Shown here piece after piece: positions 1,218 through 63,960 of a stretch of 64,000 bases of DNA; the first letter of the stretch is position 1; each line of letters starts with the position of its first letter. The notes beneath the pieces were generated by a model. It was not told where the DNA came from and did no database searches. It saw only the letters and a list, made by a program, of their open reading frames with translations. Position numbers and translations under genes: made by a program. The DNA lies in NCBI GenBank assembly GCA_011037195.1, contig JAAEAF010004368.1:1-64000 (forward strand), given 5' to 3'. Origin of the DNA: Triatoma infestans (Eukaryota > Arthropoda > Insecta > Hemiptera > Reduviidae).

Positions 1218-1629
1218 CATTTTATCCGTCGTAACATGCATATTTCTCTTGTTCCCGACCGGTTTCGGATTTTCATCCATCGTCAGAGCAAATCCACCAA
1301 GTTTCGTGTAGAGAGTTCACTTCAACGCAATGTTTCTGTTACACTCACACTCGTTGGTTGTATATATATGCGGAATGTTATAAGGTTATGTTACAATCTA
1401 TAATAATTTCATTTTACCATTAAACTCACACACATAGTAACATAACTTTATAACCTCCCTGCCCATATATACAACCAACAAACCAACAAGTGTGTGAGTG
1501 TTATAGAAACATTACGTTGAAGTGAACTCTCTACACGTACTTGTACTGAATATGCTTTGATGATGGATGAAAATCCAAAACCGGTCAAGAACAAAAAGGA
1601 ATATGCATTACTACGACGGATAAAATACC
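1218..1629. mobile_element. Foldback element F1a (full inverted repeat with two hammerhead-like motifs)
   Basis: Two arms of about 180-200 bases (1218-1400 and 1432-1629) are inverted copies of one another around a short centre. The outer ends read ATTTTATCCGTCGTA on the left and its complement on the right. Each arm holds the motif CTGANGA, a GGAT/ATCC hairpin, GAAA and CCGGTC: on the minus strand near 1252-1292 and on the plus strand near 1556-1590, where CTGA has become TTGA and GAAA has become AAAA. No protein is encoded. A second copy of one arm plus the centre lies at 41095-41336. I infer a non-autonomous retroelement related to F2; no clean target duplication was found. Confidence 0.75.
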
Positions 1630-1763
1630 AAATAAAGTATATCTCATAGAACTATATGAAATTATTTTTTTTGTAACAAAATAATTACATTATGGTGACA
1701 ACATACAGACATACATACATGCATACACACAAACAAATAGACCGTTCGCAAAAATAAAAATAT

Positions 1764-1887
1764 TACTTTCTCTTACTCCTAGTAAGAGGAAGTATTGTAA
1801 TCCTGTCAAATTTTCGATATCGAGTTTTTCACCGGAAATATCCGTTTTGAGGTCCCCTTAGTCCAAAAAAGTTGTTTTTAGCAAATG

Positions 1888-1924
<37 letters not shown>

Positions 1925-2792
1925 TGTATGTATGGATTTAATGTGACAACTAGCGCAAAACAAAAAACTAGAAAGTTGAAACTTGATATGTCCGTTTTAG
2001 GTAGCACCAGGGATCATGACACAGACGTTATTTGTTAAAAATTTCCTCAACCCGATACCAGTTTAGCTAGTTGTGTTTTTTTTTACTTTTTGCAAATGGG
2101 TCGTCAAAAAATGGCTCCAACGAGGTTTCTTTAACTGAAATACCACCCATAATTCAAGAGCGACAACTTTTATTTGAAACTTTTCTCCGGGAAAATTCAT
2201 TTAAGGGCACTTCTGGTGGAGGGATGGGGTTAGGTTGTCATCTAAAGTGCTATTTCAGTTTATTTAGACAATTCTGCCTTCTTAATAATGTTAATTAGAA
2301 TTAAATATGTTGTCAAAATTCCCGTTTGAAAAAATCGGATTACCGGAAGTGCGTTTGCTTTAAGACTTTACTAAATGATTTTTTCACTTTTTGCGATTTT
2401 CTCAAAAATGGCTCCGACGATTTTTTTGGAAACACTTAGTAATTAAACAGTCCGATGATCTACATCTTTATTGTAAACATTACTAACTAACGGGAAAATT
2501 TCTTGTTAAAGGGCACTTTTAGGGGAGGGGTGAGGGTTATGTTTTTCTCTAAAGTGCTATCATAGTTGATTTAACAATTCTATCATCCAAACATAATTAT
2601 TAGAAATAAATAGATGGCTGAAATTCAGTTTCAAGAAAATTACTAAACCGGAAGGGCGCTTTTACTGAACAGTTTTTTCAGTTTTCGACGAATTTCATTC
2701 AAATATGGCACGCAAACTATGAAATTTGTCAATTATAATTTTGAGAACTGGAGTAAGAGAAAGTTGTGTGAGTGTTTCACACCAGATTTTTT
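1764..2792 (+). mobile_element. Repeat family D, copy D1 (two ~300-bp internal units)
   Basis: This is the most complete plus-strand copy of the commonest large repeat here. The left end has a hairpin CTCTTACT-cct-AGTAAGAG (about 1770-1788). The right end has GGAGTAAGAGAAAGT, the complement of the left-end sequence, followed by a 6-bp hairpin GTGTGA-gtgtt-TCACAC (2766-2782) and a T-run. A (TG)n tract lies at 1893-1921. The interior has two ~300-bp tandem units; a GGGCACTT marker recurs at about 2205 and 2513. There is no coding capacity. The plan matches Helentron-associated non-autonomous elements (HINE/DINE-1 type); that class is inference. Confidence 0.8.
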
Positions 2793-3559
2793 TCTCATAA
2801 TATGAAGAGAAAATAAAATTAACTATTTTCCATTTTTTTTTATCTTTAATATCTTTAACTTCTAATCATTAAGATTTAATAAGAAGCAATTCGGGCATTT
2901 GGAAAGTCTAGAATTAACAAGTGTTAATGACCTCAGAAATTGATGCGTAAAAAGAAAAAAAAATACTGTAGAAAGAAAACAAAAAGCGAACATTCTAAAA
3001 AAAAACGTAGACAAAAAAAATAACAGAATAGAAATGAGGAAGTTCCACATTGAAATCCCAGATTTAGAAACTAAAGTGAATACTTTTCATGTTGGTGAGA
3101 TTACCTAACTCAGCAAATTCACCTGTGTAGATGCCAGCCTGTCTCCCTTTTTGGTGGGTAGGAAGCTGAGGTATCTAGTTCTAGTAATGGTTATGAGCAG
3201 AGGGAGTAAAAGAGATTTTCATCCCTTCTTTACAACAACTCCCCACGAATTCCCTACAACAACTTTCAGATCGAGAATTTAAGAAGTTCATCAAAAAGCT
3301 ATTTTCGCAGTTACAATAATTGGCTACATACCTTCTTCGTAAACCAATTTCTCCGGTAATTTAGTACGTGTATCTTCTATGTCACTTCTTATTATATAGG
3401 ACTATAAGGAGGTTATAAAAAATACCGATATTATAATTAGTATTTTTTTCTTTAAAATTTAGAACAGTAATTCAATTAATTGTTGTTAATTATAATTGCG
3501 TTAGTTTTTCATCGATCTTTTTTTTACTTTCACTTTCGTATTTAGCTGTTCTAAGAAGA
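2793..3559. other. AT-rich gap, nothing recognised
   Basis: Low-complexity A and T runs with no coding sequence that I recognise. The piece at about 3110-3290 is less AT-rich than its surroundings and may be an old repeat, but I cannot assign it. Confidence 0.5.
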
Positions 3560-3564
3560 AACAT

Positions 3565-4906: not shown

Positions 4907-4911
4907 AACAT

Positions 4912-5224: not shown

Positions 5225-5372
5225 TTTGAAACTGTAGTGGAAAAAAGCAAATTGGGAAAAAAATTGAAATAATTTTTTGACAAAATAAATATAGTGAAAA
5301 TACGCTTCAAAGTGTCAGGTACTATTAATTTTTAAGGTTAATGGTGTTGAGGAGACAAAGAGACAAGAAATC
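5225..5372 (+). repeat. Repeat G, copy 1, left part (interrupted by F2a)
   Basis: This stretch resembles 61540-61720 closely enough to align by eye, including CAGGTACTAT and the purine-rich run ending GACAAG. Copy 1 resumes at 6353 after the F2a insertion. Repeat G in copy 2 leads into a Penelope-like coding piece, so G may be part of that element. Confidence 0.6.
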
Positions 5373-6352
5373 ACCAGAGATATTTTCCGTGATAGGCATT
5401 CTTCTTTTTGTGGTCATCTTACCGGTTTCGGATGTTCGCCCATGATCAGGATGCGTTTGTCAAACAGTATGATAACATAGATTTGCACAGAGCAAATTTA
5501 ACTTGTGGTCTTTAAATGTTTTGTTATGGCCTGGCTAGGTCTGGAAGGTGAAGTGGGACGGTACCTGAGTGGGAAAAAACACATGTTTGGGTCTTTAAAT
5601 GGCACATTTTTCTTTAAGAATGGAAACAGCCAACACGTAGGGGTATATAACTTCAACTACGTTGTTTTAGGAAGATTTACTTTATAATTATTTATCCATA
5701 CTATCTTACTATTATATTTATTTATTTACAACATGCGAAATAACACTGTGTCAGCAGTGGGCTAATGTGAAATAGTTACTGACAAGAAATGATAAAATAC
5801 GAGCTGAATGATTGTAAGATAGATTAGATGAATAAATAATATTTTGTTAAACAAAATAATCAAAACAAAGCAAACAAATAAACGACAATCAATCTATATG
5901 AGCAGGTTGTTTGATAACACTAACATATTTCGCGTTTCATCTTTCATAATTCATACACGCCATCCACGCACGCATGTATACTTAAATATGGGTTATTTAT
6001 ATGCCTAAATATAACAAATGAAATATAACAGTTTAAGATATAGACCCCCCCCACGTGTTGGATGTTTTCATTTTTAAAGAAAAATGTGCCCCTTTAAAGA
6101 CCCAAACATGTATTTATTCCCACTCAGGTACCATCCCTCTCTCCCTTCCTGACCTAGTTAGGCCATAACAAAACATTTAAAGACCAGTTAGTGTATAAAC
6201 TACTCTGTGCCAAACTTTGTTATCACACTGTTTAAAAAACCGCATCCTGATGATAGGCGAACGCCCGAAACCGGCCGATAACCACAGAAAGAAGCAGGCT
6301 ATCACGAAAAATATCTCTGATGCTTTCCAGCTCTGCGGAACCAACCACAACG
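5373..6352 (-). mobile_element. Foldback element F2a, 980 bp, with target duplication
   Basis: The outer arms (about 5373-5510 and 6186-6352) are inverted copies. A second inverted pair lies just inside them (about 5510-5645 and 6045-6186), so almost the whole element folds on itself. Hammerhead-like motifs sit at about 5425-5460 (minus) and 6243-6280 (plus); the latter has the exact core CTGATGA. Flanks are GACAAGAAATC (5362-5372) and GACAACAAATC (6353-6363), 10 of 11 matching. The related empty site in repeat G at about 61690 supports a real insertion. There is no protein and no poly(A). The longer terminal sequence is on the right, so the element is in minus orientation. Confidence 0.82.
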
Positions 6353-12552: not shown

Positions 12553-13364
12553 TGTAGTGGGATCAGATGTCTTGGAGAGAGGGTTATGATGCGATGAATA
12601 GTTGGGAATTAGTTAGAGATTTTTAGAGAGTTGTTACTCGAAATGTGAACTACTAATTTACGAAAATAGATATATATTTTAACAATAAATTAACGTTTGA
12701 AAAGATATAACTACAATTAATTTAAAATGATTTAAATGGTAACTAGAATGCACAACTATAATGATTGATAAATAAAATAAATGTTTAAATACTTAGATAG
12801 GGACGCGCTCCGATGTATGAACTATGTCGCTGGTAGAATCTTGATGATACGCTGATAAAATACTGAAGAATACTCATCCCCCCTTCCTGTGGAGAGACGT
12901 TATATTGCCATCACTCACACATTGACAAGTGTGTAATTACGGGTCACACTAAAACATCTCTTGCCGTATGTTGACCCTAGGTCTTGAATAGGTCGGGGAA
13001 CAGGGGCTGGCAACAGGTGATGACGGTTATCAAAAGACTGTAGCCAGGTGGTCTTTTGAGTGTTTGTTTATTGGCGGTTATCAAAGACTGTAGCCAGGTG
13101 GTCTTTTGAATGATTTGTTGACCCTTGTATATCGGCCAGGCGGCTTCTATGTACTGACCGTATAATGACCCTTTTAAAAGGGTTTCTTGTTGAAAGCGGT
13201 GTGTCTTTGGCGGTTCCTGTCCTTGGCGGTCCCTTTGACCGTGCACTGACAGCGGCTCTTGACTTGAATAATAGCGACTGGCTGGCACCACTATTTATAA
13301 TTTTTATAATTAAAAATTATATATTTTCCTTCTTGTTATCACTCCTTCTTGTTATCACATTACA
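12553..13364 (-). mobile_element. LTR-like repeat E, copy E1 (candidate solo LTR)
   Basis: This 812-bp segment is an inverted copy of the repeat at 39617-41020 (after removing a retroposon there). On the minus strand it begins TGTAATGTGATAAC and ends CCCACTACA, giving TG...CA ends. Inside, a ~50-bp segment is tandemly duplicated (about 13027-13120). Each unit has CAAAAGAC (AAAGAC in the second) paired with GTCTTTTG around a 12-base loop. No matching target duplication was found for this copy, so LTR status rests mainly on E2. Confidence 0.6.
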
Positions 13365-13920: not shown

Positions 13921-14912
13921 TTAACTTTCTATTACTCCTAGCAAGAGGAAGTATTGTAATTGTGTCAAATTTTCGATATTGAGTTTTCACCGGAAATATC
14001 CGTTTTGAGATCCCCTGAGTACAAAAAAATGGTTTCTAGCGAATGCTCTGTGTACGTATGTGAACAGCATAGCTCAAAAACGAAAAATTGCAGAAAGTTG
14101 AAACTTGATATTCCGTTTTGGTATCACTATGGGATCCGACAGTATGCCAGCGGTCGAAATTCCTGGACCGGAAGTAACATTTTACAAAGTGGTCTTTTCC
14201 CTTTTTTGCAGTTTTATCAAAAAATGGCTCCAATGATTTTCTTTAAATTTGATATATCAACCACACATACAATGATCTCCATTTTTTATTTGTAACATTT
14301 CTCCGGTAAAATGCATTCAAGGGCTCTTTTAGGGGAGGGGATGGTGGGTTGTCCTCTAAAGCCCTACTTCACTTTACTATACAATTCTATCATCTAAACA
14401 ATATTAATTAGAAATAAATGTGTTGTTGAAATTCCGAGTTTGAAAAAATCGGATGACCGGAAGTGCGATTTTTACTAAAATCTATTTTTCAGTTTTCTGG
14501 TATTTTTTTTACTTTCTTGCAATTTTCTCAAAAACGGCTCGGACGATTATCTTTAAACTTGATATATCAACTACACATGCAATGATCTACAACTTTTATT
14601 TAAATCATTTCTCTCGGAAAATTCATTTAGGTGCACTTTCAGGGGAGGGAGGTTATGTTTTTCTCTAAAGTGGCAACATAGTCGATTATACAATTCTATC
14701 ATCCAAACAAAATTAGTTATAAATAAATAGATGTCCAAAATACCGAGTTTCAAGAAAATAAGTAAACCGGAAGTGCGCTTTGTTTTCAGTTTTCGACGAA
14801 CTCCAACGAATTTCATCAAATTTGGTACACAAACTATAAATTTGTCAATTACAATTTTGAAAACTGGAGTAAGAGAAAGCTGTGTGAGTGTTTCAAACCA
14901 GAATTTTTTATT
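13921..14912 (+). mobile_element. Repeat family D, copy D2 (two internal units)
   Basis: Left end CTATTACTCCTAGCAAGAGG, right end GGAGTAAGAGAAAGCTGTG plus the GTGTGA hairpin near 14880-14900. Internal ~310-bp units have G-rich markers near 14314 and 14625. The 111-aa frame at 13960-14295 is only translated repeat DNA. D2 faces D3 tail to tail. Confidence 0.8.
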
Positions 14913-15052
14913 AAGATAATAGTGAGTCTTGATGACTCTAAATTTTTTATTCTTATTAAACATCTTAAAAAAAAAAAAAAAATGAAGAAGAAATCAATTT
15001 TCTTAACAGCATTAGAAATAAGAAAAAGTAAAAATGAATGCATATAACAAAA

Positions 15053-15462
15053 CGAAAAATCTGGTGTGAAGCACTCACACAACTTTCTCTTACTCCAGTT
15101 CTCAAAATTATAATTGACAAATTATATAGATAGTGTGCCAAATTTAAAGAAATTGGCGGAAACTGAAAAAAAAACTGTTCAGTAAAAGCGCACTTCCGGT
15201 TTGCTAATTTTCTTGAAATTCAGAATTTTGACCATCTATTTATTTTGTAATTAAATTTGTTTGAACGATAGAATTGTATAATCAACTATGAGAAAAACAT
15301 TACCACTTCAGAGAAAAACAAAACCACACCCCACCCCCTTAAAGTGCTGTTAAATGAATTTTCCCAGAGAAATGTTTCAAACAAAAGTTGCAGCTCTATG
15401 TATGTATAGTAGATGTAATAAGTTTCAAGAAAATCGATGGAGTAAAATCGCAAAAAAGTAAA
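15053..15462 (-). mobile_element. Repeat family D, copy D3a (3' part)
   Basis: It starts on the plus strand with TCTGGTGTGAAGCACTCACA, the complement of the D right end, and contains one internal unit. It is cut off where a second D right end begins at 15463, so it is a truncated copy or one part of a composite. Confidence 0.72.
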
Positions 15463-16458
15463 AAAAAAATCTGGTGTGAAACACTCACACCACTTTCTTT
15501 TACTCCAGTTCTCAAAATTATAACAAACAAATTTTATAGTTTTTGCACCAAATTTAATGAAATTTGACGAAAATTGAAAAAACTATTCAGTAAAAGCCCA
15601 CCTGCGGTTTACTGATTTCCTTCAAACTCGGAATTTTGGCCATCTATTTATTTCTAATTAATTTCATGTGGATGATAGAGTTGTATAATCAAGTATGATA
15701 GCACTTTAGGGGAAGCTATAACCTTACCCCTCTCTTAAAAATTCCCTTAAATGAATTTTTCTAGAGAAATGTTTTATATAAAAGTTGTAGATCATTGTAT
15801 GTTTAGTTTATATGTGTAGTCTCAAGAAAATCGTCGGGGCCATTTTTGAGAAAATCGCGAAAAAGTGAAAAAAATCATATTTAGTAAAGTGTTAAAACAA
15901 AAGCACTTCCGGTTATCCGATTTTCCTCAAATTCTGAATTTCAACAACATATTTAATTCTAATTAATATTATTTAAATGACCGAATTGTGTAATAAAGTG
16001 AAATAGCACTTTAGAGGTTAATCTAACCCCACCACTCCATCAAAAGTGCCCTTAAATGAATTTTCCTAGAGAAATGTTTGAAATAGAGTTGTAGTTCCTT
16101 GTATATGCAGTTGATGTATCAAGTTTAAAGGAAATCGCTGAAGCCATTCTTGAAAAAAAACGCAAAAAAGTAAAAAAAAACAACTCGTAAAGTGGTACTT
16201 CCGGTTGAGGAATTGTGACAGATAACGCACAGTCAGATCGCATGGTGATGCCTAAACGGAATATCAAGTTTCAACTTTCTACGGTTTTTCGTTTTTGAGC
16301 TATGCTGTTCACATACACACACACACACAGACCATTTGCTAAAAATCACTTTTTTGGACTCAGGGGACCTAAAAACGGATATTTCGATGAAACTCAATGT
16401 CGAAAATTTGACATGATTACAATACTTCCTCTCACTAAGAGTAAGAAAAAGTAAAAAT
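15463..16458 (-). mobile_element. Repeat family D, copy D3b
   Basis: A nearly complete minus-strand D copy. The right end with the CACTCACA hairpin is near 15475-15495. Internal unit markers (CCCTTAAATGAATTTT) are near 15749 and 16048, about 300 bases apart. An (AC)n tract is near 16314-16330, and the left end CTCTCACTAAGAGTAAG is near 16430-16446. Confidence 0.78.
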
Positions 16459-17651: not shown

Positions 17652-17663
17652 TATTCTCTACAG

Positions 17664-18147
17664 TTGTTGTGGTGGTTGGTTCCACAGAGCTGGAAAGCAT
17701 CAGAGAAATTTTCCGTGGTAGTCTGTTTCATTTTGTGGTCATCGACCGGTTTCGGGCGTTCGCCCATCTTCAGGATGATGGCAGACAGTGTGACAACACT
17801 AACAATTCAGTTTATACACTAATGTTACTTCCGGTTAGTTTCCTGCCGTTTAGCTTCTGAGAGCCCATTTATTCAATCATCAGTAGACTAAGTACTGGTT
17901 CTTCATGATCATTCTGGCTTCCACAACCATTATTATGCAGAACACAACAGAAATATGAAAGGAATGGACTGAGCAGGTCTAAGGGAGACCTTAGATGCTT
18001 ACAATGATTTATGAGTGTATAAACATTTACAATGAATTTGCTCTGTGCAATCACACAGTCTGACAAACGCATCCTGAAGATAGGCGAACGCCCGAAACCG
18101 GTCTATGACCACAAAATAAAGCAGGCTACCACGGAAAATGTCTCTGA
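17664..18147 (+). mobile_element. Foldback element F2b, 484 bp, with perfect 12-bp target duplication
   Basis: It begins TTGTTGTGGTGGTTGG and ends ACGGAAAATGTCTCTGA. Inverted arms are about 17664-17822 and 18010-18147. Hammerhead-like motifs are at about 17742-17782 (minus) and 18068-18106 (plus, core CTGAAGA, GAAA, CCGGTC). Direct repeats TATTCTCTACAG flank it at 17652-17663 and 18148-18159. The centre (17824-18009) is cargo: an inverted copy of 18347-18532. No protein and no poly(A). Retroelement class is inference. Confidence 0.88.
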
Positions 18148-18261
18148 TATTCTCTACAGGTATGTTCCGTATACTATTTCTTAATACTTTCCTAATGACA
18201 TTTTAACATCAGGAACTACAGCAGTGTTCGCTCTCAGTGAATCCAATACCAGCAAGGAATT

Positions 18262-18299: not shown

Positions 18300-18346
18300 C
18301 TTCTTTTTTCCTTTTTTCTTGTGGAAATTTGCCTTTGATTGTAAAT

Positions 18347-18532
18347 CATTGTAAGCATCTAAGGGTTAATTTTTCAGTCCATTCCTTTCATATTTCTGTT
18401 GTGTTCTGCATAATAATGGTTGCGGAAGCCAGAATGATCTTGAAGAACCAGTACTTAGTCTACTGATGATTGTAGATAATTATTTAATGGGCTTTCAGAA
18501 GCTTAACGGCAGGAAACCAACCGGAAGTAACA
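18347..18532. repeat. Inverted duplicate of the F2b cargo
   Basis: The reverse complement of this stretch matches 17824-18009 inside F2b with a few substitutions and small indels. Landmarks are TTCATATTTCTGTTGTGTTC and AACGGCAGGAAAC. It lies outside the F2b target duplication, so one copy was probably derived from the other. Confidence 0.8.
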
Positions 18533-29500: not shown

Positions 29501-29513
29501 GAAGGAGTGTCGT

Positions 29514-29837
29514 TGTGGTGGTTGATTCGGCAGAGGTGGAAAGCATCAGAGATATTTTCCGTGATAGCCTGCATCATTTTGTGATCATCGACCGGTTTCG
29601 GCCGTTCGCCCATCTTCAGGATACGTTGTCATGACAGTGTGATACCACAGACTGCACAGAGCAAATCAATTACACACTCAGTGTGTAAACACTTATACAG
29701 AGTGTGTAAACTGAATTTGCTCTGTGCAAGTCTGTGTTATCACACTGTCTAACAAACGCATCCTGAAGATGAGCGAACGCCCGAAACCGGTCGATGGCTA
29801 CAAAATGAATGAGGCTATAACGGAAAATGTCTCTGAT
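29514..29837 (+). mobile_element. Foldback element F2c, 324 bp (minimal form)
   Basis: Two inverted arms lie almost back to back around a TACACACT/AGTGTGTA centre, with practically no cargo. Hammerhead-like motifs are at about 29588-29626 (minus) and 29759-29795 (plus, core CTGAAGA; one stem position is now a mismatch, GAGC against GCCC). Flanking GAAGGAGTGTCGT (29501-29513) and GAAGGATTGTCAT (29838-29850) match at 11 of 13 positions and look like an aged target duplication. Confidence 0.82.
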
Positions 29838-32706: not shown

Positions 32707-32868
32707 ACAGAGATATTTTCCATGATAGCCTGCTTCTTTTTGCAGTCATCGACCAGTTTCGGGCGTTCCCCTAATTTTTCAAATAGTGTGATAACATAGA
32801 TTTGCATAGAGCAAATTTTGTTGATACACTATGATCTCGGATGCTTTCCAGCTCTGCGAAACCAATCA
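32707..32868 (-). mobile_element. Foldback element F2g, deleted and decayed
   Basis: One arm (32707-32825) is complete with a degraded hammerhead-like motif near 32748-32785. The other keeps only the long terminal part (GATGCTTTCCAGCTCTGCG then ACCAATCACAG). The flanks GCAAGTAAA and GCAAGACAA may be an old duplication. Confidence 0.65.
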
Positions 32869-33211
32869 CAGCAAGACAATTTTTATTGTTTTTGATATTT
32901 TTCAAAAAAATTTATATTGTAACTATTAATAAGTTTGCATTTTTACAATGTGCCATCCTGAAAAATGGGAAGCTTTTCCAAATCATTTAGGAAAACATAA
33001 GATTGTTATTCATTACTGACTGACCCAAAACCTCAACAATTTTTTAAAAAAATTATACAAATAAAAGGATCGAACAAAAATTTCTCAGTTCATAGTTAGT
33101 GAGAATTGGTGAGAACATCCTACGACACATTTGAATGAATGTTTATGGCCAACTCACCTCGGAACAGAACCAATCACAAATCAAGTTTCTCTTAGAAAAA
33201 TGTTTGCCTGC
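32869..33211. other. AT-rich gap, nothing recognised
   Basis: No feature seen. Confidence 0.4.
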
Positions 33212-35078: not shown

Positions 35079-36771
35079 CACTGAACTAAACGACCTAAAT
35101 TCTAAAAGGCAAGACCAATACTTACAATCCCTTAGTACCAAAGACTACAGCTTATGGAGGACAACAAAACGCATTTTACACTACATACCTGTTACATCAC
35201 CTTTAAGAAACGACAATGGAAAATGGACAACAACTGACGAAGAAAAAGCCTCACTTTTCTCCCACCACCTCCAACAAGTTTTCCAGCCTCATAACTATGC
35301 GGAAGAAGAGACTCACAATAGAACAAGAACTGAATTGTATGAACCACTCCAACTTTCACTTCCACCAAAACCTTTTACACCCGCAGAAGTACAACATGCT
35401 ATTAAGAACTTGTCAAACAAGAAATCACCAGGATACGATCTCATTACTGCAGACATCCTTAAACTATTGCCAAAAAAAGCAATACTGTATCTCACGTTTC
35501 TATTTAATGCATCACTAAGGACTGTTTATTTCCCTCTTATCTGGAAATATTCCTTAGTAACTATGATACCAAAACCTGGCAAATCTCCTACAGAGCCTAC
35601 TTCCTACAGACCAATTAGTTTGCTTCCGATACTAGGAAAATTACTAGAAAAACTGCTCATAAAACGACTTACACACTATACAGACCGTATCATACCACAG
35701 CATCAATTTGGCTTCAGACAACAGCACTCTACTATTCATCAAATACAAAGAGTCACAACACACATTGCTAACGCTCTCGAATCCAAACAGATATGTACAG
35801 GCATTTTTCTAGATGTTTCACAAGCCTTCGATAAAGTATGGCACCCAGGATTGCTTGTCAAACTAAAGAGAATTCTACCTTTCACTTATTACCTTTTGCT
35901 AAAATCTTATCTCGAGGACAGATTCTTCAGTGTTAGGGTAAAAACAGTTATCTCCGACATTCATCCCATTGAGGCTGGAGTCCCGCAGGGGAGTGTTCTG
36001 GGGCCACTACTATACAATATTTACACATACGACATACCTGAACATCCGAATATAGTTACTGCGACCTATGCGGATGACACAGCACTACTTGTTACCAACA
36101 CAGACATAATAACCAACAAATTAATATTGGAGCAGCATTTGACTAACTTGCATAACTGGAACATCACATGGCAAAGTAAACTCAATATAAACAAAACAAA
36201 AACAGTACATTTTACTCTAAAAAAGACGGAAGATATACCTGTGAAATATGATAACGAACCATTACCGTTAAGTAACTCGGTAAAATATTTAGGGATGCAC
36301 TTGGACAAACGACTAACTTGGGCAACACATGTAAAAACTAAAAGACTTGAACTTAATTTACGTTTCAAACAGTTATATAGATTACTAAAGACAAAATCCA
36401 CATTAAACATAAACAACAAACTCCTAATTTACAAGACTCTATTGAAACCAATTTGGACATACGGACTTCAGCTTTGGGGAGCGGCTAAACAGACACATTT
36501 GAAAAAAATTCAGACATTCCAATCTCGCACACTGCGGACTATACTTTCATCTCCTTTCTATGTTACAAACGAAACAATACATAAAGACACAAACACTGAA
36601 ACAGTACAACAAGCAGCACATCGACTGTACACTAAGTATCATGTCAAACTGAACAGTCATACAAATCTTCTAATCAACAATTTACAAACAACTCTAGTTC
36701 CAGGAAGAAGACTAAAACGGAGATGGCCACAGGATTTGTTACATCCACAGTGTAGACAAACTTCATACTGA
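35011..36771 (+). CDS. Jockey ORF2 remnant: intact reverse transcriptase without endonuclease
   Basis: An open frame of 586 codons. The first ATG lies in leftover ORF1 DNA, so the true ORF2-derived part begins near residue 10. RT motifs in order: NKKSPGYDLI near 138, SYRPISLLPILGKLLEKL near 199, FGFRQQHST near 233, FLDVSQAFDKVWHPGLLVKL near 268, AGVPQGSVLGPLLYNIYT near 328, catalytic TATYADDTALL (Y353-D356), and YLGMHLDKRLTW near 429. The C-terminus ends in a basic PGRRLKRRWPQDL. The upstream apurinic endonuclease domain is gone. The frame has no stop or frameshift. Whether it is translated is unknown; it lacks its normal start context. Confidence 0.93.
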   Translation: MTNLNTRLPSHRAHYNQVTRHLNTELNDLNSKRQDQYLQSLSTKDYSLWRTTKRILHYIPVTSPLRNDNGKWTTTDEEKASLFSHHLQQVFQPHNYAEEETHNRTRTELYEPLQLSLPPKPFTPAEVQHAIKNLSNKKSPGYDLITADILKLLPKKAILYLTFLFNASLRTVYFPLIWKYSLVTMIPKPGKSPTEPTSYRPISLLPILGKLLEKLLIKRLTHYTDRIIPQHQFGFRQQHSTIHQIQRVTTHIANALESKQICTGIFLDVSQAFDKVWHPGLLVKLKRILPFTYYLLLKSYLEDRFFSVRVKTVISDIHPIEAGVPQGSVLGPLLYNIYTYDIPEHPNIVTATYADDTALLVTNTDIITNKLILEQHLTNLHNWNITWQSKLNINKTKTVHFTLKKTEDIPVKYDNEPLPLSNSVKYLGMHLDKRLTWATHVKTKRLELNLRFKQLYRLLKTKSTLNINNKLLIYKTLLKPIWTYGLQLWGAAKQTHLKKIQTFQSRTLRTILSSPFYVTNETIHKDTNTETVQQAAHRLYTKYHVKLNSHTNLLINNLQTTLVPGRRLKRRWPQDLLHPQCRQTSY

Positions 36772-37198: not shown

Positions 37199-37618
37199 TT
37201 GTTGTGGTGGTTTCACAAAACCGATGACATCACGACCACGATGAAGCTAATACACTCTGGCCACAAAGGACGACGACTTGACATAGTAGAACAACTCGAA
37301 ATATATAAACGCAAAACAAAAAACTTAATCAACGAACAGACAAAATTTGCCAGTAAACCATTATTCAAAACACTCTTCCCACAATAGCAACAGAAACGCA
37401 ATTACCAGTGCAAACATTACACACGCAACAAATAGTTCTTAAACGGATTTTAGTTTTAGGTTTAGTTTTTAAATCTACTAGGTATATATATATATAAATT
37501 TACTAGTTTTATATATATAGGGGGAAAAAAAAGTGCTTATTTGGATGATGTTTGTGAATGATGATGTGATATGTTGAGTGGAATGCATAATAAAAAACTT
37601 AATTATATAAAAAAAAAA
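37199..37618 (+). pseudogene. Penelope-like element, C-terminal end of GIY-YIG protein plus 3' UTR
   Basis: The 62-aa frame (37199-37387) contains MKLIHSGHKGRRLDIVEQLE, then IYKRK, LINEQ and PLFKTLF. This order matches the extreme C-terminus of Penelope-like element proteins after the GIY-YIG endonuclease (GRRLDILEQLEIY ... LNEQ ... PL). The 3' part runs through a TA-rich stretch to a poly(A) at about 37608-37621. The 5' side is truncated; its first bases TTGTTGTGGTGGTT are the same as the start of the F2 foldbacks. No flanking duplication was found. Confidence 0.7.
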
Positions 37619-37869
37619 AAACATATTTAGGTATATATGCTTTGCGAGGATATGAATGTTGTGTGAAAAAGTGAAATAATTACTGGGAAGGCATAGTTAT
37701 AAAAAATTTAATTATAACAATCGTTTAATTTTAAATGAATGTATGAATTTTAAATGTTAGTTTAAATTGTTATTTAATTTTATTTAAATTTATTTTGTGT
37801 ATTTTATATTTTATTTTGGTTAGTTAATTATTGTAAAGTAAATCTCCCTTCAACAACAGAGTTTTAAAA

Positions 37870-38148
37870 ATTAGACCCCCCCCTCCACGTGTTGTGTCCA
37901 TTGTAAGGAAAATTTGCCCTTTAACAACCCAAACACGTGTTTTCCCATCTAGCTGGCCGTATCCCTTGACCTAGTTTAAGAGTTTAGTTTTAAAATACAG
38001 TTAAATCAGTCAGTGTGAAAACTAAGTTTGCTCTGTGCAAGTCTGTGTTGTCACACTGTCTGAAAAATGCATCCTAAAGAATGGGCGAACGCCCGAAACC
38101 GGTCGATGACAACAAAATGAAGCAGGCTACCACGGAAAATGTTTCTGA
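37870..38148 (+). mobile_element. Foldback family F2, right half only (F2e)
   Basis: The inner segment (from GACCCCCCCTCCACGTGTTG) matches the inner arm of F2a near 6045-6186. The outer arm (about 38018-38148) matches other F2 right arms, with a mutated hammerhead-like motif near 38069-38107 (CTAAAGA instead of CTGAAGA). No left arm was found next to it. Confidence 0.75.
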
Positions 38149-38722
38149 TACATTAGAAAATAGTGTATAATAAATAGCATGTTTTGAAGGATACATTATG
38201 ACTAAATTTTAATGGTTGGTGTTAAGTATGCTCAGTGTTTATCAAATTATTTTTATTATGGGGGAACGATAAAAAATTACAGATTACCGATTAAAAGTGC
38301 AGATTATTTGCATGATATACTTTTGAAATTTCCTATCGCGCCCACTTAAAAAATGCCACCATGATATCTTTCTCAACATATTCTTAATGTAATTTAAACA
38401 TAAATTAATATCATTTAAAAATGATCATGATAAATACAAACAAATACATTTGATTGCCTCTATTATTTATTTCAATATCATCTCCTATATGCCGTTTGCT
38501 GCCAACCTACTTACATATCGATTTACTTACATATTTTCTTGTACTAACCCTGCTTGTATTTCACATTTATTTATTACTTGTACAAGTTTTTGACTGTCCA
38601 AAAACTTTGTATTACCTTTCTTTAAACTTTATCAGTACAGTTTACTCCTGAAATTTCTCCCCCCCCTCCCACCTAATAAAATGGAATAGCTTAAATGAAA
38701 AATGGCCAAATGAAATGAAAAA
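38149..38722 (+). repeat. Direct duplicate block, copy 1 (partner 42397-42970)
   Basis: About 570 bases starting ATACATTAGAAAATAGTG are nearly identical to 42397-42970. Both copies directly follow the right arm of an F2 element. There is no recognised coding content; the 65-aa frame at 38454-38651 is not a known protein. Confidence 0.85.
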
Positions 38723-39616: not shown

Positions 39617-41020
39617 TGTAATGTGATAACAAGAAGAAAAATCTATAATTTTTAATTATAAAAATTATAACTAGTAGTGCCGTATTTATTGGCGTGAATG
39701 TATTTATTGGCGTGAATGTATTTATTGGCGTGAATGTATTTATTAGCGTAAATAGTATTTATTGCATGAATGTTAGTGTGAATGTATAGATTAGGTTTTT
39801 TATTTTGGGGTTGAAAGAAATTTTATAAAAGTATTTCAACCCCACTAGGTTTAAGTTCAATTTAGGATTAGTCCATTTTAGGGGGTGCAGGAACATTTGC
39901 TGAAAGTACTGCACACCCCAACTAGTTTTATAGTAAATAGCCTCCTCAGAATAGATTATGTAGCTAAAGTGTACATAAAAATAAAAATGAAAATATTGAT
40001 GCAACATGGCACCCAAAGTACTTTTACTCGTCGTGAATTTTATTCAAATTACTTGTGGCAATTAAAGGGATGACACAACAATAAATCCACACTCCCCCTC
40101 GTCGACTAGATTGATGATATAAGTGGGGACGTGTGGAAAGATTCAGAACCTGGGGCTCTTCCCCGCCTTGTTCAGCAAGGTGTTGTGCAAGCAAGAGGCC
40201 AACTAGGTAGCAGCATGTGTCATCCCAGATCGACACATGCTGCTACCTAGATTGGGGCGCTAATAACCACAGTAGTTGATGCGCCAAAAAAAAAAAAACT
40301 AGTAGTGCCAGCCAGTCGCTAGTATTCAGGTCAAGAGCCGCGGTCAGTGCACGGTCAAAGGGACCGCCAAGGACAGGAACCGCCAAAGACACAGTGCTTT
40401 CAAAAAGGCCATTATACGGTCAGTATACAGAAGCCGCCTGGCCAATATACAAGTGTCAACAAATCATTCAAAAGACCACCTGGCTACAGTCTTTGATAAC
40501 CGGCAATAAACAAACACTCAAAAGACCACCTGGCTACAGTCTTTTGATAACTACCAACACCTGTTGCCACACCTGTTCACCGACCAATTCAGGACCTAGG
40601 GTCCCGACACACGGCAAGAGATGTGGCCCGTAATTACACACTTGTCAATGTGTGGAGTGATGGCAATATAACGTCTCTTCACAAGAAGAGGGGATGATTA
40701 TTCTTCAGTATTTCATCAGCGTATCATCAAGATTCTACGAGTGACATAGTTTATACATCGGAGCGCGTCCCTATCTAAGTATTTAAAACATATATTTATT
40801 TTTCAATCACTATAGTTGTGCATTCTAGTTACATTTTAAATCATTTTAAATTAATTGTAGTTATATCTTTTCAAACGTTTAATTTATTGTTAAAATATAT
40901 ATATCTATTTTCGTAAATTAGTAATTCATATTCCGAGTAACAACTCTCTAAAAATCTCTAATTAACTCCCAACTATTGATCGCATCACAACACCTCTCCA
41001 AGACATCTGAACCCTCTAAA
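39617..41020 (+). mobile_element. LTR-like repeat E, copy E2, with 4-bp target duplication and nested retroposon
   Basis: It starts TGTAATGTGATAAC and ends CCCTCTAAA, flanked by GAGC on both sides (39613-39616 and 41021-41024). It is an inverted match to E1 (12553-13364). Internal landmarks are two hairpins with AAAGACCACCTGGCTACAGT and TCGGAGCGCGTCCCTATC. Removing the nested retroposon and one duplicate leaves about 780 bp. The 4-bp duplication and TG start suggest a solo LTR; the expected final CA is not preserved. Confidence 0.65.
39682..40296 (+). mobile_element. Poly(A) retroposon with 18-bp minisatellite and hairpins, 13-bp target duplication
   Basis: AACTAGTAGTGCC flanks it at 39669-39681 and 40297-40309. 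The 5' end is an 18-bp tandem repeat, GTATTTATTGGCGTGAAT three times plus variant units (39682-39771). Then comes GGGGTTGAAA paired with TTTCAACCCC (39807-39843), and a perfect 19-bp stem of CTAGGTAGCAGCATGTGTC with its complement (40203-40250). The 3' end GGCGCTAATAACCACAGTAG plus GATGCGCC and A12 is the S1 SINE-type end. No protein and no tRNA head are seen. It appears to be a chimeric SINE-like element. Confidence 0.8.
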
Positions 41021-41094
41021 GAGCAAATCGCAAAAACTGAAAAAAACCTGTTGAATATATAAATGGGTCCGCAATGCTGGATAACTTTTGGTAT

Positions 41095-41336
41095 TTAATC
41101 CGTCGTAACATGCATATTCCTTTTGTTTTTGACCGGTTTCGGATTTTCATTCATCGTCAGAGCAAAGAATCATCAAGTTCGTGTAAAGAATTCACTTCAA
41201 TGTAATGTTTTTTGTTACACTCCGACACTTGTTTGGTTTGTTGGTTGTATATTCATGTACGGGAGGTTATAAGGTTATGTTACTATATGTGTGGGTTGTA
41301 TTTAACAACAAAATGGAATTATTATAAATTATGATT
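41095..41336. mobile_element. Foldback family F1, half copy (F1b)
   Basis: One arm plus the centre of F1, from AATCCGTCGTAACATGCATA to the AATTATTATAAATTATG centre. The hammerhead-like motif lies on the minus strand near 41130-41166 with core CTGACGA, GAAA and CCGGTC. The opposite arm is missing; the sequence gives way to the F2d target duplication. Confidence 0.75.
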
Positions 41337-41353
41337 ATACATTAGAAAATAGT

Positions 41354-42396
41354 TGTTGTGGTGGTTGGTTCCGCAGAGCTGGAAAGTATCAGAGACATTT
41401 TCCGTGGTAGCCTGCTTGATTTTGTGGTCATCGACCGGTTTCGGGCGTTCGCCCATCTTCAGGATGCATTTTTTCAGACAGTGTGACAACACAGACTTGC
41501 ACAGAGCAAACTCAGTTTACACACTGACTCTGTGTTTACACTTTAGTATTAATAATATATTATAGCTATTTCAACCAAACCTTAAAAAATTATTTAATTG
41601 AAAAATGGCAACACTGTTATTATTATTACTTTTATAATTTTTTTTTATGGAGGGGGAAATGTCTTCGCACAAAGTGTGGGACTTGCACCCACTAAAAAAC
41701 CCCCCTCCCTCATAAGCACTTGTCCATTCCGGAACTACATATACAGGGTGGTGCCTCGTAACCGCGGGCTGCCTCCGGCCTAGCTGGACCACGTCCTCAG
41801 GAGGTCGAGGTGCCTATTCATGTCTACAATCTTCATCCATAGGATCGTCCGGACAAAGGTAGCCACCCAGTTCTAACGGTCTTCCAAGGCGAGCATGGCC
41901 CTCACCACCGTCTCCCGTGAGATCCTCCCGATTTGGATTCCAGCTTCGGCCGTTCTCGCTCCCATCTGCCACATCTAAAAAAGATATGGAACGCTCATCC
42001 TTCTCTGCATCTCCGTAGATGCACACTTCCACTTTCCCCACTCTCCATAGGTACTCCGGCAAAACAGCCATGCCCTGTGAGAAATTGGGTGAAGAAATAG
42101 TCGACCTCGCCCTGCCGCCTACTTACCCATTCAGGCAGACTGGAGAAGAGACTCGCGATCCACCTACCGCGGCGCTCATTCCCCCAACGCTTCTGCCACC
42201 TTCGCAGCGTGGCCGGCCTGGCCTCAGTCTGGCACTGAGGCTCTGTGTAAACACAGAGTCAGTGTGTAAACTGAGTTTGCTCTGTGCAAGTCTGTGTTGT
42301 CACACTGTCTGAAAAATGCATCCTAAAGAATGGGCGAACGCCCGAAACCGGTCGATGACAACAAAATGAAGCAGGCTACCACGGAAAATGTCTCTG
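41354..42396 (+). mobile_element. Foldback element F2d carrying an R1 LINE fragment, perfect 17-bp target duplication
   Basis: It begins TGTTGTGGTGGTTGGTTCC and ends ACGGAAAATGTCTCTG. Direct repeats ATACATTAGAAAATAGT flank it at 41337-41353 and 42397-42413. The arms (41354-41523 and about 42243-42396) hold a well-preserved hammerhead-like motif on the minus strand (41430-41468) and a mutated one on the plus strand (42318-42356). The ~700-bp centre is a piece of R1-clade LINE in minus orientation, whose longer relative lies at 45650-46580. Confidence 0.9.
41524..42240 (-). pseudogene. R1-clade LINE C-terminal fragment (cargo of F2d)
   Basis: On the minus strand the translation, in shifting frames, reads TQFLTGHGCFAEYLWRVGKV then a later TVVRAMLA...W-VATFVRTI and MNRHLD. 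This is the region after the RT domain of R1/Waldo/TRAS-type LINEs, ending near a MNRHLD-like terminus. The best single frame is 41814-42071. The 3' untranslated part includes a G-rich tract and ends at about 41524. It matches 45890-46580 in inverted orientation but is 5' shorter. The usual cysteine-histidine cluster is damaged. Confidence 0.85.
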
Positions 42397-42970
42397 ATAC
42401 ATTAGAAAATAGTGTATAATAAATAGCATGTTTTGAAGGATACATTATAACTAAATTTTAATGGTTGGTGTTAGGTATGCTCAGTGTTTATCAAGTCATT
42501 TTTATTATGGGGGAACGATAAGAAATTACAGATTACCGATTAAAAGTGCAGATTATTTGCATGATATACTTTTGAAATTTCCTATCGCGCCCACTTAAAA
42601 AATGCCACCATGATATCTTTCTCAACATATTCTTAATGTCATTTAAACATAACTTAATATCATTAAAAAATAATTATGATAAATAAAAACGAATACATTT
42701 GATTTCCTCTATTATTTATTTCAATATCATCTCCTATTTGCCGTTTGCTGCCAACCTTCTTACATATCGATTTACTTACATATTTTCTTGTACTAACCCT
42801 GCTTGTATTTCACATTTATTTATTATTTGTACAAGCTTTTGACTGTCCAAAAACTTTGTATTACCTTTCTTTAAACTTTATCAGTACAATATACACCTGA
42901 AATTTCTCCCGCCCCCACCTAATAAAATGGAATAACTTAAATGAAAAATGGCCAAATGAAATGAAAAAAC
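42397..42970 (+). repeat. Direct duplicate block, copy 2 (partner 38149-38722)
   Basis: Nearly identical to the first copy, with scattered substitutions. It starts with the right target-duplication copy of F2d and ends where family D begins (at about 42970). Confidence 0.85.
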
Positions 42971-45649: not shown

Positions 45650-46580
45650 AGTGTCCGTCGCGGGCGCCGTCCTCCTAGATGGATGTGAGATTTGGGCTAA
45701 CGCCCTTAGAAAATCGAGACACTGGAAAAAAATTTAGGCGTTTGTCCGCGGTACAAAGGAGGGGGGCGCTTAGAATAGCCACGGATGGTATCTGAGCCGG
45801 CCGTCTTAGTAATCCTTAGCCCGATTGATCTTCAGGCTAGAGAGAGACTGGAGGATTGGGAGTGCAAGGGAGTGCCGTCAATACGGGTGCCAGACTGAGG
45901 CCAGGCCAGCCACGCTGCGAAGGTGGCAGGAGCGTTGGGGGAACGAGCGTCGCGGTAGGTGGACCGCGAGTCTTTTCTCCAGTCTGTCTGAATGGGTAAG
46001 TAGGCGGCAGGGCGAAGTCGACTATTTCTTCACCCAATTTCTCACAGGGCATGGCTGTTTTGCAGGAGTACCTATGAAGAGTGGGTAAAGTGGGAACGTG
46101 CATCTACGGAGATCCAGAGAAGGATGAGCGTTCCATATCTTTTTTAGATGTGGCAGATGGGAGCGAGAACGGCCGAGGCTGGAATCCGAAATCGGTGGTG
46201 AAGGCCATGCTCGCCCGGGAAGACTGTTAGAACTGGATGGCTACTTTTGTCCGGACGATCCTATAGATGAAGATTGTAGACATGAATAGGCACCTCGACC
46301 ACCTGAGGACGGGGTCCAGCTAGGCCGGAGGCAGCCCACGGTGGCGTTACGAGGCACCACCCTGTAGTAGTACTATAAGTAGTTCCGGAATGGACAAGTG
46401 CTTATGAGGGGGGGTTTAGTGGGTGCAAGTCCCACACTTTGTGCGAAGACATTTTCCTCCTCCATAAAAAAAAAAAAATTGTAAAAGTAATAATAATAAC
46501 AGTGTTCCCATTTTTCAATTAAATAAATTTTTAAGGTTTGGTTGAAATAGCTATAATATATTATTAATACTAAAGTAAAA
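45650..46580 (+). pseudogene. R1-clade LINE 3' fragment
   Basis: The start translates in mixed frames to GAVLLDGCEIWANALRKSRH, the end of the RT region of R1-type LINEs. It continues with W-ERWGNERRGRWT, QGEVDYFFTQFLTGHGCF and, after frame breaks, TVVKAMLAREDC-NW and MNRHLDHL. It lacks any catalytic motif and has several stops. The 3' part (from about 46290) contains a GAGGGGGGGTTTAG tract and TTTGTGCGAAGAC and ends near TAATACTAAAG. Classic R1 elements sit in 28S rDNA; no rDNA is next to this piece. Confidence 0.85.
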
Positions 46581-56984: not shown

Positions 56985-56993
56985 AACTAGATA

Positions 56994-58171: not shown

Positions 58172-58415
58172 AATGTATCATTAGAGATATTTTCCGTGAT
58201 AGCCTGCTTGCTTTTGTGGTCATCGACCGGTTTGGGCAAAACAGTGTGATAACATATATAGACTTGCACGGAGCAAAACCGCTTTTTAAAAACCAGTGAA
58301 TCAACGAAATTTACTTTGTGCAAGTCTAAGTTATCACACACTGTTTTGACAAAAACATGATGATGGGCGAACGTCTGAAACCCGGTCGATGACCACAAAA
58401 TAAAGTAGGCTGTAA
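58172..58415. mobile_element. Foldback element F2f, short
   Basis: Inverted arms about 58185-58290 and 58310-58415. The left arm has lost the hairpin part of the hammerhead-like motif. The right arm keeps ATGATGATGGGCGAACGTCT then GAAACCCGGTC (58352-58392), with substitutions in the stem. No clear flanking duplication. Confidence 0.7.
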
Positions 58416-58564: not shown

Positions 58565-58620
58565 TGTATCAATAGGAGATTCACTCACAAGCCTTGTGAG
58601 TGTTTCACACCGGATTTTTG
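58565..58620 (+). repeat. Family D right-end scrap
   Basis: CTTGTGAGTGTTTCACACCG plus GATTTTTGG matches the D terminal hairpin and T-run only. Confidence 0.55.
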
Positions 58621-60300: not shown

Positions 60301-60381
60301 TTACTGGCAAAAAAAAGCATATACATGAATATCGCTTCGGCGGTAATATACTGAAAAGACAAGGGTAAAAAATATACATAT

Positions 60382-61520: not shown

Positions 61521-61539
61521 TTCTATCAATTATGTAGTG

Positions 61540-62130
61540 GAAGAAAGACATGGAAAAATAATAGTTTTGGAAAATAGTTTAGTGAAATAATTTTGTAAAA
61601 TTTTGCTAGTTCAATACACTTATTTTAGTGAAGGGTAAAGAGCCAGGTACTATAATTTAGGTAAATGGTACTGAAGAGGCAAAGGGACAAGTAACAGTTA
61701 GGATAAGACAATACACTCCCTCCAGACATACCAGCATTATTTGAAAAGATTTGTACTAGCAAGAGAAGGCATTCTTTCAGACAGTCTGCATTCTGCTTTC
61801 AAACAAGAACAGTCTGTATTAGACATTCTACCAGTAAACATCAGTGCCAGTTATAAGTTAAAACATAAGAATTTATTCTAACTAGCTTCAGTATATTATT
61901 GTACATTATTATGTACAATAAGTGTATGATTGTGTTATTGAAAAGTACTTAAATTCACTTAGAGAATATATTATCTATTTTGAAAACAGTGTGATCTCTT
62001 GATTATTTCAGATACTTCTCTCTTAAACATATATACTCCCAAGCACTTTACAAAACCGTTCACGCCACAATCTACTACTACCTCAAGCTACAACTACAAC
62101 ATCACATCCCCAACTACATTTCAATTATTT
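61540..62130 (+). repeat. Repeat G, copy 2 (uninterrupted)
   Basis: It matches 5225-5372 joined to 6353-6770 across the F2a site, showing an allele-like empty site near 61690 (GACAAGTAACAGTTAGG). It lies upstream of the Penelope-like coding piece and may be its 5' part. Confidence 0.65.
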
Positions 62131-62399
62131 AGTCATCAAATACATTAAAAACATTGCCAGTTTTCTAAGTTTGACAGGAAAACAGTTAATGGAAATTGCG
62201 ATTTTATGGAAAAGTTGTCTGAAATTTTTACAAAATTTTCTAGAAAATTTGGGTTTTTTTATTTTGGGAAATCTTTGGCGTTAGATTTTGTATATTATTT
62301 AAAAGAGGCTCTGGAGGACTCTAGTGTAATCTATTCACTAAATGTTACTATTTGCACGATTTTTTACCCCAACTAAAATTAAAGGTAACTAAACGTAGA

Positions 62400-62900
62400 G
62401 TAAAATCATGCCCGAGCCATCTATATTCCGTTCATTCATCTATTCAAATTCCATCTCATACATAATCATTCATACTCTAAAGTCTATCATTCCCAATCTC
62501 AAGTCTGGTCTCCACTCCTTCGACAAACTCAGTAAACATTACTCTAAACTCAAAAACCCCTTTGAAACTTATGACCAAACGAATTCTCTTTTCAGCATAC
62601 TTTGCACTGCACCAAACTGTAATGCATGTTACATTGGTGAATCAGAAAAACACCTACGAATGAAACTTAGACAACATGAAAACGGACATAACTAACAAAA
62701 AAAAATCTGGCAGTACAGACTTCACAAAACATGCAATTACCCTTGTCCATTCCTTTGATTTCCGAAATTGCTTCTAGGCTAACCAACTGAAGCGATTGAT
62801 TATTTTCTGAATCCATGCACATTAACCTCAATCCTAACTGCATAAACTACAAAAAAGACACGGACGAAATGTGATAATGACCTATTCTTACAACAATATT
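62400..62900 (+). pseudogene. Penelope-like element, GIY-YIG endonuclease region
   Basis: The frame 62408-62695 contains KLSKHYSKLKNPFETYDQTN, the linker before the nuclease, then SILCTAPNCNACYIGESEKH and LRMKLRQHENGH. This fits the GIY-YIG start (C..C..CYIGES..L..RL..H). After a stop the homology continues: GSTDFTKHAITLVHSFDFRN and, near 62815-62870, INLNPNCINYKKDTDE. The RT domain is not seen upstream. The nuclease would nick the target for priming; this copy is broken by stops. Confidence 0.72.
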
Positions 62901-62984
62901 TTTCGCTTCCTCCAAAAAGATACCCACACATTCAATTACACATACCAAAACTTTCTTTACATTCCGCTCATTTCTAGGTAATCG

Positions 62985-63655
62985 TGTCAAATTTTTGATA
63001 TCGAGTTTTCACCGGAAATATCCGTTTTGAGGTCCCCTGAGTCCAAAAAAGTGGTTTTTGGCAAATGGTTTGTGTCTGTGTGTGTGTGTTTGTGAATGTG
63101 ACCAGCTTAGCTCATAAACGAAAAACCGCAGACAGTTGAAATTTGATATTCCGTTTAGGTATCACCATGGGATCTGACTGTACGTTATCTGTAAAAATTC
63201 CTCAACCGGAAGTACCACTTTACTAGATTTTTTTATACTTTTTTGCGTTTTTCTTAAAAATGGTTAGGACGATTTTCTTGAAACTCCTTATATAAACTAA
63301 ACATACAATGATCTACAACTTTTATTTAAAACATTTCTCTAGGAAAATTCATTTAAGGGCACTTTTATGGAAAGGGTGGGGGTTATGTTTTTCCCTAAAG
63401 TGCTATCATAGTTGATTATACAATTCTATCATCCAAGCAAACTTAATTAGAAATAAATAGATGGCCAAAATGCCGACTTTCAAGGAAAGTAGTAAACCAG
63501 AAGTGGGCTTTTACTGAACAGTTTTTTTAGTTTTCGACGAATTTCATTAAATTTGGTACACAAACTATTAAAATTTGTCAATTATAATTTTGAGAACTGG
63601 AGTAAGAGAAAGTTGTGTGAGTGTTTCCCACCAGATTTTTTTTTCTTATAATTAC
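62985..63655 (+). mobile_element. Repeat family D, copy D9 (one internal unit, in Penelope-like DNA)
   Basis: It starts GTAATCGTGTCAAATTTTTG (left hairpin missing), has a TG-rich tract near 63070-63093 and a single ~300-bp unit with its marker near 63357. It ends GGAGTAAGAGAAAGTTGTGT plus the terminal hairpin and T-run. Compared with D1 and D2 it has one fewer unit. Confidence 0.8.
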
Positions 63656-63960
63656 TTATTGATTTGTTTTTCCCTTCTAGCACTCCTCATACTTTCCAAC
63701 TTTTCTAAATTTTCTTTTCACGATCTTCTTTGCAAGTTTACCTTATTCCATAATCAAACAATAACCTCCTCTAACATTCAACTCTCTATACTTCCTTAAA
63801 CATGTATCGTATCTTTTTTATTTTTATATTATTTAATCGTTAAATGTTGTAGTTTATTTCTTTTTGTATTGCTCTTTGTTTTGTTTATGTAGTTTCTGAG
63901 GAAAGACACCAAAGGTGTCCGAAACGTTGAATAAACTTTTAAAGATAAAAGTTTTTTTCT
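63656..63960 (+). mobile_element. 3' end of the Penelope-like element with hammerhead-like motif
   Basis: After D9 the Penelope-like non-coding tail resumes. It contains CTGAGGA, a 6-bp GACACC/GGTGTC hairpin and CGAAACGTTG at about 63896-63931, then AATAAA. The layout CTGANGA, hairpin, GAAAC followed by a short self-complementary ACGT matches the motif reported in Penelope-like pseudo-LTRs. Assignment to the 62.4 kb coding piece is by position. Confidence 0.6.

Follow-up and report, generated by a model that had tools for sequence, protein, structure and literature searches.

The first 64,000 nucleotides of contig JAAEAF010004368.1 from Triatoma infestans (assembly GCA_011037195.1, forward strand; hereafter the window) carry, in two families of repeated arms (F1 and F2) and in a Penelope-like tail at 63.9 kb, a short motif resembling a hammerhead ribozyme. 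What is this motif, which elements carry it, and how did arms bearing it come to stand as inverted pairs? The reading that we favour, and to which we give a probability of roughly 85%, is that F1, F2 and the 63.9-kb copy represent the termini of Penelope-like elements (PLEs) with a minimal type I hammerhead, and that many F2 copies were built from both sides of the target, with one start at a site A and the other at a site B.

The motif and the elements that carry it

CTGANGA occurs 46 times in the window, compared with 21.2 expected, and none of 100 shuffles reached that number. At seven window sites CTGANGA and a following GAAACCGGTC both match perfectly (1257, 17744, 29590, 41131 and 41433 on the minus strand, 18074 and 29763 on the plus strand); the same scan returned further copies with one or two mismatches, plus some matches that look like chance. 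The repeated motif that an earlier note had described in the F1 and F2 arms and the tail is thus real, and so is the mutated state that it reported for several copies, since window copies with mismatches or core changes are seen. In the assembly (941 Mb, 13,959 contigs) the F2 pattern CTGAAGATN{8,14}GAAACCGGTCGATG has 14,154 exact matches (7130+7024), and the 40 bases past the presumed F2 cut have 25,832 matches with at most three mismatches; each reversed pattern gave 0. The pattern CTGANGA...CGAAACGTT, which fixed the C preceding GAAA, matches 1,786 sites, and its reversed control matches 24. Among the 100 matches listed, 26 with letters contain 13 distinct strings, and these together with F1, F2 and F4 (the family of the 63.9-kb copy) make up the 16 strings used in the pairing tests.

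The core CUGANGA ... GAAA ... NUH is present in the type I order, and NUH is GUC or GUU across families. Within stem II, 39 of 40 outer positions are Watson–Crick pairs in ten families or subfamilies (picked for forming a stem, and not all independent), with a mean of 1.98 of 4 on cross-pairing and no equal result in 20,000 shuffles. Because the ten were picked for having stems, the fairer figure is 10 of 16. This is the covariation that had been proposed as a check: stem II changes over the ten families or subfamilies, yet it stays paired. The hairpins themselves are as previously claimed, namely GGGC/GCCC in F2, GGAT/ATCC in F1 and, in the F4 motif at 63896..63928 on the plus strand (CTGAGGA, 6-bp stem II, GAAACGTT), GACACC/GGTGTC.

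At the classic offset of 0, with stem II abutting CUGANGA, none of the 16 strings pairs over 2 bp or more, and the motif departs in this from the classic consensus. In nine of the 16 strings, CTGANGA is followed by exactly one spare base and then by a stem II that is 4 bp or longer, counting G-U pairs. F4 has two bases before its stem II and one after; the remaining six strings are degenerate or poorly paired, and two of these have an ATG but no stem. The extra T noticed earlier between core and stem II is present in F1 and F2, where it is the T of an ATG. A spare base before stem II recurs in nine of the ten stem-forming families, so it cannot be put down to damage in individual copies.

Stem I pairs in four families, which are all those with flanks read, and cross-family pairs are poorer. 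The CATC/GATG pairing suggested for F2 does form; stem I of F1, already described as weak, contains a mismatch (four of its first five positions are paired), and the 63.9-kb copy is paired at 4/4 positions, two of them G-U. Stem III is a loopless palindrome, ACCGGU or ACGU, which from its sequence should be usable only between two motifs. The palindrome ACCGGT, reported after GAAA in the arms, holds for F1 and F2, and the 63.9-kb motif ends instead in AACGTT. In a fold calculation the lowest-energy dimers differ from the double hammerhead, which for F2 has −27.3 kcal/mol, compared with −31.2 kcal/mol for the best dimer. The hammerhead reading is supported by the covariation of stem II and by the pairing of stem I in the four families, and the motif belongs to an already published kind, the minimal dimer-type PLE hammerheads. 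Its cleavage is predicted, and would probably take place in RNA dimers, as is reported for other PLE hammerheads.

F1 and F2 are pseudo long terminal repeat (pseudo-LTR) ends of two PLE families, not free-standing fold-back repeats. A BLAST search with the F2 arm finds pairs of arms that point outwards from a centre whose length varies, and six single-arm F2 copies have 470–600 nt of common upstream sequence. In four of those loci and in the window copy, this upstream sequence includes the last part of a Penelope-type endonuclease, with the C-terminus ...KFASEPLFRTLFPQ; in the sixth, L051, no endonuclease was seen. The best F2 upstream frame scores 21.7 bits for GIY-YIG (E 2.6e-4), just below the Pfam cut-off of 22.6, and is 25% identical over 122 amino acids (E 4e-11) to an open reading frame (ORF) at locus L087. 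F1 is assigned to PLEs by the homology of its arms. From the ATG to the end of the tail, the F1 and F2 frames of typical copies can be aligned by eye over 34 codons (MGERPKPV..., MDENPKPV...), and several single F1 copies carry one-base indels within this frame.

Locus L087, to which a GIY-YIG search led (38 matches), belongs to a family F3. Its ORF of 809 amino acids scores 29.3 bits for RVT_1 (cut-off 29.6) and 28.1 bits for GIY-YIG (cut-off 22.6), and the F3 ORFs of both L087 and L088 comprise a reverse transcriptase (RT) and a C-terminal GIY-YIG endonuclease. The L087 ORF lies between direct pseudo-LTRs, each carrying the motif (CTGAGGA-A-GATTAT...ATAATC-GAAACGTTT, with one change in the right one); at its left end the element has a motif-bearing arm in inverted orientation, and a T-rich 13-bp duplication, TGTTTTTTTTTCA, can be read by eye on both sides of it. 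When this ORF was used in a protein search, 110 of the 7,995 candidates scored were relatives, the best at 44% identity, and the few named sources include insects and a rotifer. The structural features of PLEs, that is pseudo-LTRs, an optional tail of 30–40 bp on one of them and a target site duplication (TSD), are all found. The Penelope link made in the earlier note is borne out by where the motif sits, namely at the terminus of elements coding for a PLE endonuclease.

A third PLE family, F4, is the source of the 63.9-kb motif. Upstream of it, at 62399..62692 on the plus strand, lies a broken endonuclease remnant related to the L087 ORF (30% identity over 89 amino acids, E 2e-8), in which Pfam gives no GIY-YIG at E ≤ 1. 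Between this remnant and the F4 hammerhead sits one copy of a dispersed repeat of ~0.7–1 kb, which has direct and inverted copies in the window (1798-2799, 13956-14915 and 62978-63648, and inverted around 15040-16332).

Ends, joins and source of the inserted arms

Two ends recur among the arms: A is where a 35-nt AC-rich tail ends, and B lies after GTCTCTGAT, ~35 nt short of A. In the window and 74 loci there are 45 F2 inverted pairs, of which 41 are A/B, two are B/B and two are unclear; none is A/A. A/B therefore accounts for 41 of the 43 classifiable pairs, compared with 21.5 expected under independent ends (binomial tail 1e-10), and 22 of them carry the tail on the left arm, 19 on the right. 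Twelve loci were dropped for overlap before this count, one of which (L063) held an A/B pair absent from its overlapping locus, and L019 and L020 may be near-duplicates. The 15 inverted pairs of F1 comprise nine A/B, one B/B, five unclear and no A/A, and in F3 one copy, read by eye, has two end points ~40 nt apart.

The arms are mostly inverted pairs, an exception being L079, with two same-direction arms 0.27 kb apart, and the window holds no retrozyme-type tandem array of the arm (direct tandem repeats of 150–450 bp). A TSD of at least 11 bp was found in 15 of 31 pairs, nine of these being 12 bp, and the longest match in 31 mismatched-flank controls was 9. Between the arms, spacers run from −19 (an overlap) to 785 nt, and three copies (L041, L070 and L085) have unequal arms with a near-zero join; arm lengths, used solely for these near-zero-spacer joins, were measured against one reference copy and end where that copy diverges. 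Spacers of at least 90 nt are present in 14 copies, and six of them match their own flanks: three are a widespread repeat, and three are rare elsewhere in the loci and copy DNA 0.2–3.5 kb away. The centre of the pair at 17662-18149 contains an inverted copy of 18342-18532, that of 41350-42403 is an inverted copy of 45887-46576, and the centre of 1319-1660 in L052 matches 1012-1148; two of the three local-copy centres are inverted and one is direct. It is as if an end had switched onto a local template during insertion. Among 25 single-arm ends, five (L064, L077, L079, L080 and L082) carry, at the other extremity of the copy, a short stretch of the other end type in inverted orientation.

The two arms of a copy have the same source. 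They agree at 193 of 207 diagnostic cells, compared with a mean of 0.605 and a maximum of 0.731 in 500 runs with shuffled mates. Given this agreement, the use of two unrelated RNAs per insertion is unlikely. Comparison of whole-arm identity, a weak test, ranked the mate first for 6 of 56 arms, with a mean identity of 0.924 within copies and 0.894 between them.

Once inserted, the motifs decay neutrally. In the mates of 41 exact arms, changes affect 30/661 positions of the hammerhead core, 18/310 of stem II, 3/155 of loop II and 4/148 of the 5' side of stem I, compared with 61/1541 downstream and 60/966 upstream (both without the diagnostic columns). We considered selection on individual copies, and found no clear protection, the rate of change in the core being near background among these mates. 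Conservation would thus act, if at all, on active sources, and the copies are mostly passenger relics. One of the 41 mates starts near the ribozyme cut (within 60–78), in a test that is weak because very short arms can escape BLAST, so there is no support here for cleaved RNA as the template. Each strand of an inverted pair has one sense and one antisense motif, and hence no double hammerhead can form within one transcript there; one could come from tandem elements like L087.

These observations suggest the following scheme. The pseudo-LTR of each family carries the motif, in which CUGANGA lies between a short stem I and, mostly after a single unpaired base, stem II; GAAA and the palindromic stem III come next. 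The PLE reading frames of F1 and F2 open at an AUG overlapping A9. Reverse transcription would start inside the RNA, either at A, the end of the AC-rich tail, or at B, ~35 nt upstream. For many F2 copies, both staggered 3' ends of the target would be extended, one complementary DNA (cDNA) starting from A and the other from B, and the outcome would be two outward-pointing arms, a variable join and a TSD of ~12 bp. We infer that the two cDNAs, one per target strand, come from one RNA or from two RNAs of one source.

In the window, F1 is represented by an insertion with inverted arms at 1184..1633, in which the left arm has an old tail (A end) and the right arm has none (B end; motifs at 1257-1286, minus strand, and 1557-1586, plus strand, with a mutated core), and by an arm with tail at 41050..41200 on the minus strand (motif 41131-41160). 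The F2 inverted pairs lie at 5367..6351, with the tail on the right arm (motifs 5420-5449, minus, mutated, and 6247-6276, plus, one mismatch); at 17662..18149, with the tail on the left arm and the TSD TATTCTCTACAG (17744-17773, minus, and 18074-18103, plus); at 29509..29837, with the tail on the left arm and a flank match of 7 nt only (29590-29619, minus, and 29763-29792, plus); and at 41350..42403, with the tail on the left arm and the TSD ATACATTAGAAAATAG (41433-41462, minus, and 42323-42353, plus, one core change). Two further F2 pairs are decayed, at 32708..32869 (tail on the right arm) and 58180..58411 (end types unclear). The 5'-truncated F2 PLE copy at 37199..38154, plus strand, consists of a short inverted tail piece (37199-37212), the C-terminus of the GIY-YIG endonuclease (~37214-37387), the 3' untranslated region and a B end, with the motif at 38074-38104 (one core change). 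Its flank is common to another insertion and it has no clear TSD of its own; 38008-38307 and 42257-42556 are direct duplicates (300 nt, 97%) at a distance of 4,249 nt, each covering an F2 arm together with the flank to its right. Elsewhere in the window, 12687-13305 and 40288-40884 contain inverted repeats of 120–230 nt (91–93% complementarity) ~27 kb apart, and 35008-36771 is an open frame of 587 amino acids that by eye resembles a non-LTR retrotransposon RT.

Alternative readings

Several observations weigh against hammerhead-bearing PLE ends inserted from both sides. The Rfam hammerhead models, put forward in the earlier note as a check, gave no hammerhead at E ≤ 10, either in the whole window or in stretches of 101 and 91 bases. 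The C-terminal part and the first 34 codons of the F2 ORF were seen, and the full ORF is not among the copies read. No duplication of at least 11 bp accompanies 16 of the 31 pairs. Five of the 25 single-arm ends have the look of plain one-sided truncations with a 12–14-nt duplication (L008, L054, L058 and two in L081; one is a T-run), and three more (L005, L017 and L047) are truncation-like with duplications of 9–10 nt. Two-sided priming is therefore common, not universal. Finally, the agreement between arms could partly reflect short-lived subfamilies, not one RNA.

The alternative that survives best, unlikely as we consider it, is that the motif serves as a structural signal that never cleaves, such as a protein-binding or RNA-dimerising hairpin. 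The extra base next to the core, the loopless stem III, the missing Rfam match and the lack of a pile-up at the cut (1/41 mates) all fit such a signal, and a study of the Anolis PLE Poseidon (PAc, from Anolis carolinensis) reports insertion in vitro with hammerhead mutants (PMC11167929). The core letters are nevertheless kept across families, together with a usable NUH (GUC or GUU), and the same study describes a PAc motif that cleaves when aided by the PLE protein and at which the ORF likewise opens at stem II (PMC11167929). Such a layout therefore need not kill activity.

It is less probable that the inverted arm arises by self-priming, a cDNA or antisense RNA folding back on itself, as is offered for rotifer Penelope (PMC3846280). 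Self-priming would explain why both arms of a copy have the same source, and the rotifer paper describes inverted pseudo-LTRs whose joins contain palindromes (PMC3846280). A cDNA that copied itself would return to its own start, however, so both ends should match, whereas in 41 of the 43 classifiable pairs the two ends lie at different sites; the unequal-arm, spacerless joins of L041, L070 and L085 are also unlike a hairpin turn. A variant within the PLE scheme, which we hold to be doubtful, is that the stem III palindrome mainly dimerises two same-source PLE RNAs in one ribonucleoprotein, templating the two sides of the insertion from A and B. If true, the hammerhead would be a dimerisation signal that enables two-sided insertion.

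We think it very improbable that the stretch is conserved as protein, the start of the PLE ORF, with the hairpin as a by-product. The 34-codon frames of F1 and F2 are alignable, and two of the 16 strings (C9 and C76) have an ATG without a paired stem II, as this would predict, but these two may be decayed copies. CTGANGA, moreover, is upstream of the ATG; F3, F4, F5 and F7 have no ATG there and still have the core and a paired stem II; and the difference between F1 and F2 alters amino acids and keeps the pairs. Least likely of all, despite the inverted arms, high copy number and target duplications, are fixed fold-back or miniature inverted-repeat transposable element-like DNA elements with terminal inverted repeats and a motif acquired by chance, a reading rejected because the join varies among copies in spacer and arm length, and opposed also by the tail on one arm only in 41 of 43 pairs and by the same arm terminating PLE copies with an endonuclease ORF.

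Comparison with known systems

Minimal PLE hammerhead motifs have reportedly been described by Cervera and De la Pena in 2014 and by Lunse, Weinberg and Breaker in 2017. As presented in a review, the published motifs resemble those studied here in their type I order, in a missing or loopless stem III suited to dimers, and in their position in PLE pseudo-LTRs with thousands of dispersed copies (PMC7761336); the likeness is one of description, not letter by letter. The PLE hammerhead is widespread, and the same review calls its in vivo activity and role a mystery (PMC7761336).

The closest details come from PAc (PMC11167929). The PAc ORF begins where stem II begins, like those of F1 and F2. The cut falls 26 nt after the start codon in PAc and is predicted 24 nt after it in F2, and RT starts in an AC-rich site 111–118 bp into the ORF in PAc and ~102–105 bp in F2. 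The tail of PAc similarly lies between two RT start sites, and both target strands are cut and extended. Uncleaved RNA is described as the dominant substrate, with which the lack of a pile-up at the cut in the F2 mates agrees. In contrast to the F2 pairs, PAc has no strand difference in start site in vitro, and the text consulted does not state a one-A-one-B rule. Nor did we find such a statement in the literature on PLE twin priming and both-strand priming, in a search whose coverage excluded most subscription journals. The insertion anatomy is less documented than the hammerhead, and the spare base and this anatomy are what the present analysis adds. With 25,832 F2 arm matches and other families besides, both the retention of a spare base in nine of ten stem-forming families and insertion from both target strands with two RT start sites become testable, and the A/B rule yields a plain prediction that can be checked by counting in any genome rich in PLEs.

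Penelope of Adineta vaga (PMC3846280) also has head-to-head inverted pseudo-LTRs, one of which bears a 31-bp tail, TSDs of 8–10 bp in several copies and none in others, captured spacer DNA, and a pseudo-LTR that spans the first codons. It differs in its few copies and in that the inverted joins are put down to self-priming; the word hammerhead is absent from the main text of that paper (PMC3846280). Animal non-LTR retrozymes, finally, have type I hammerheads with dimer activity in some (PMC7229834), but are short tandem repeats without an ORF, whereas the arms described here are mostly inverted and belong to coding PLEs.

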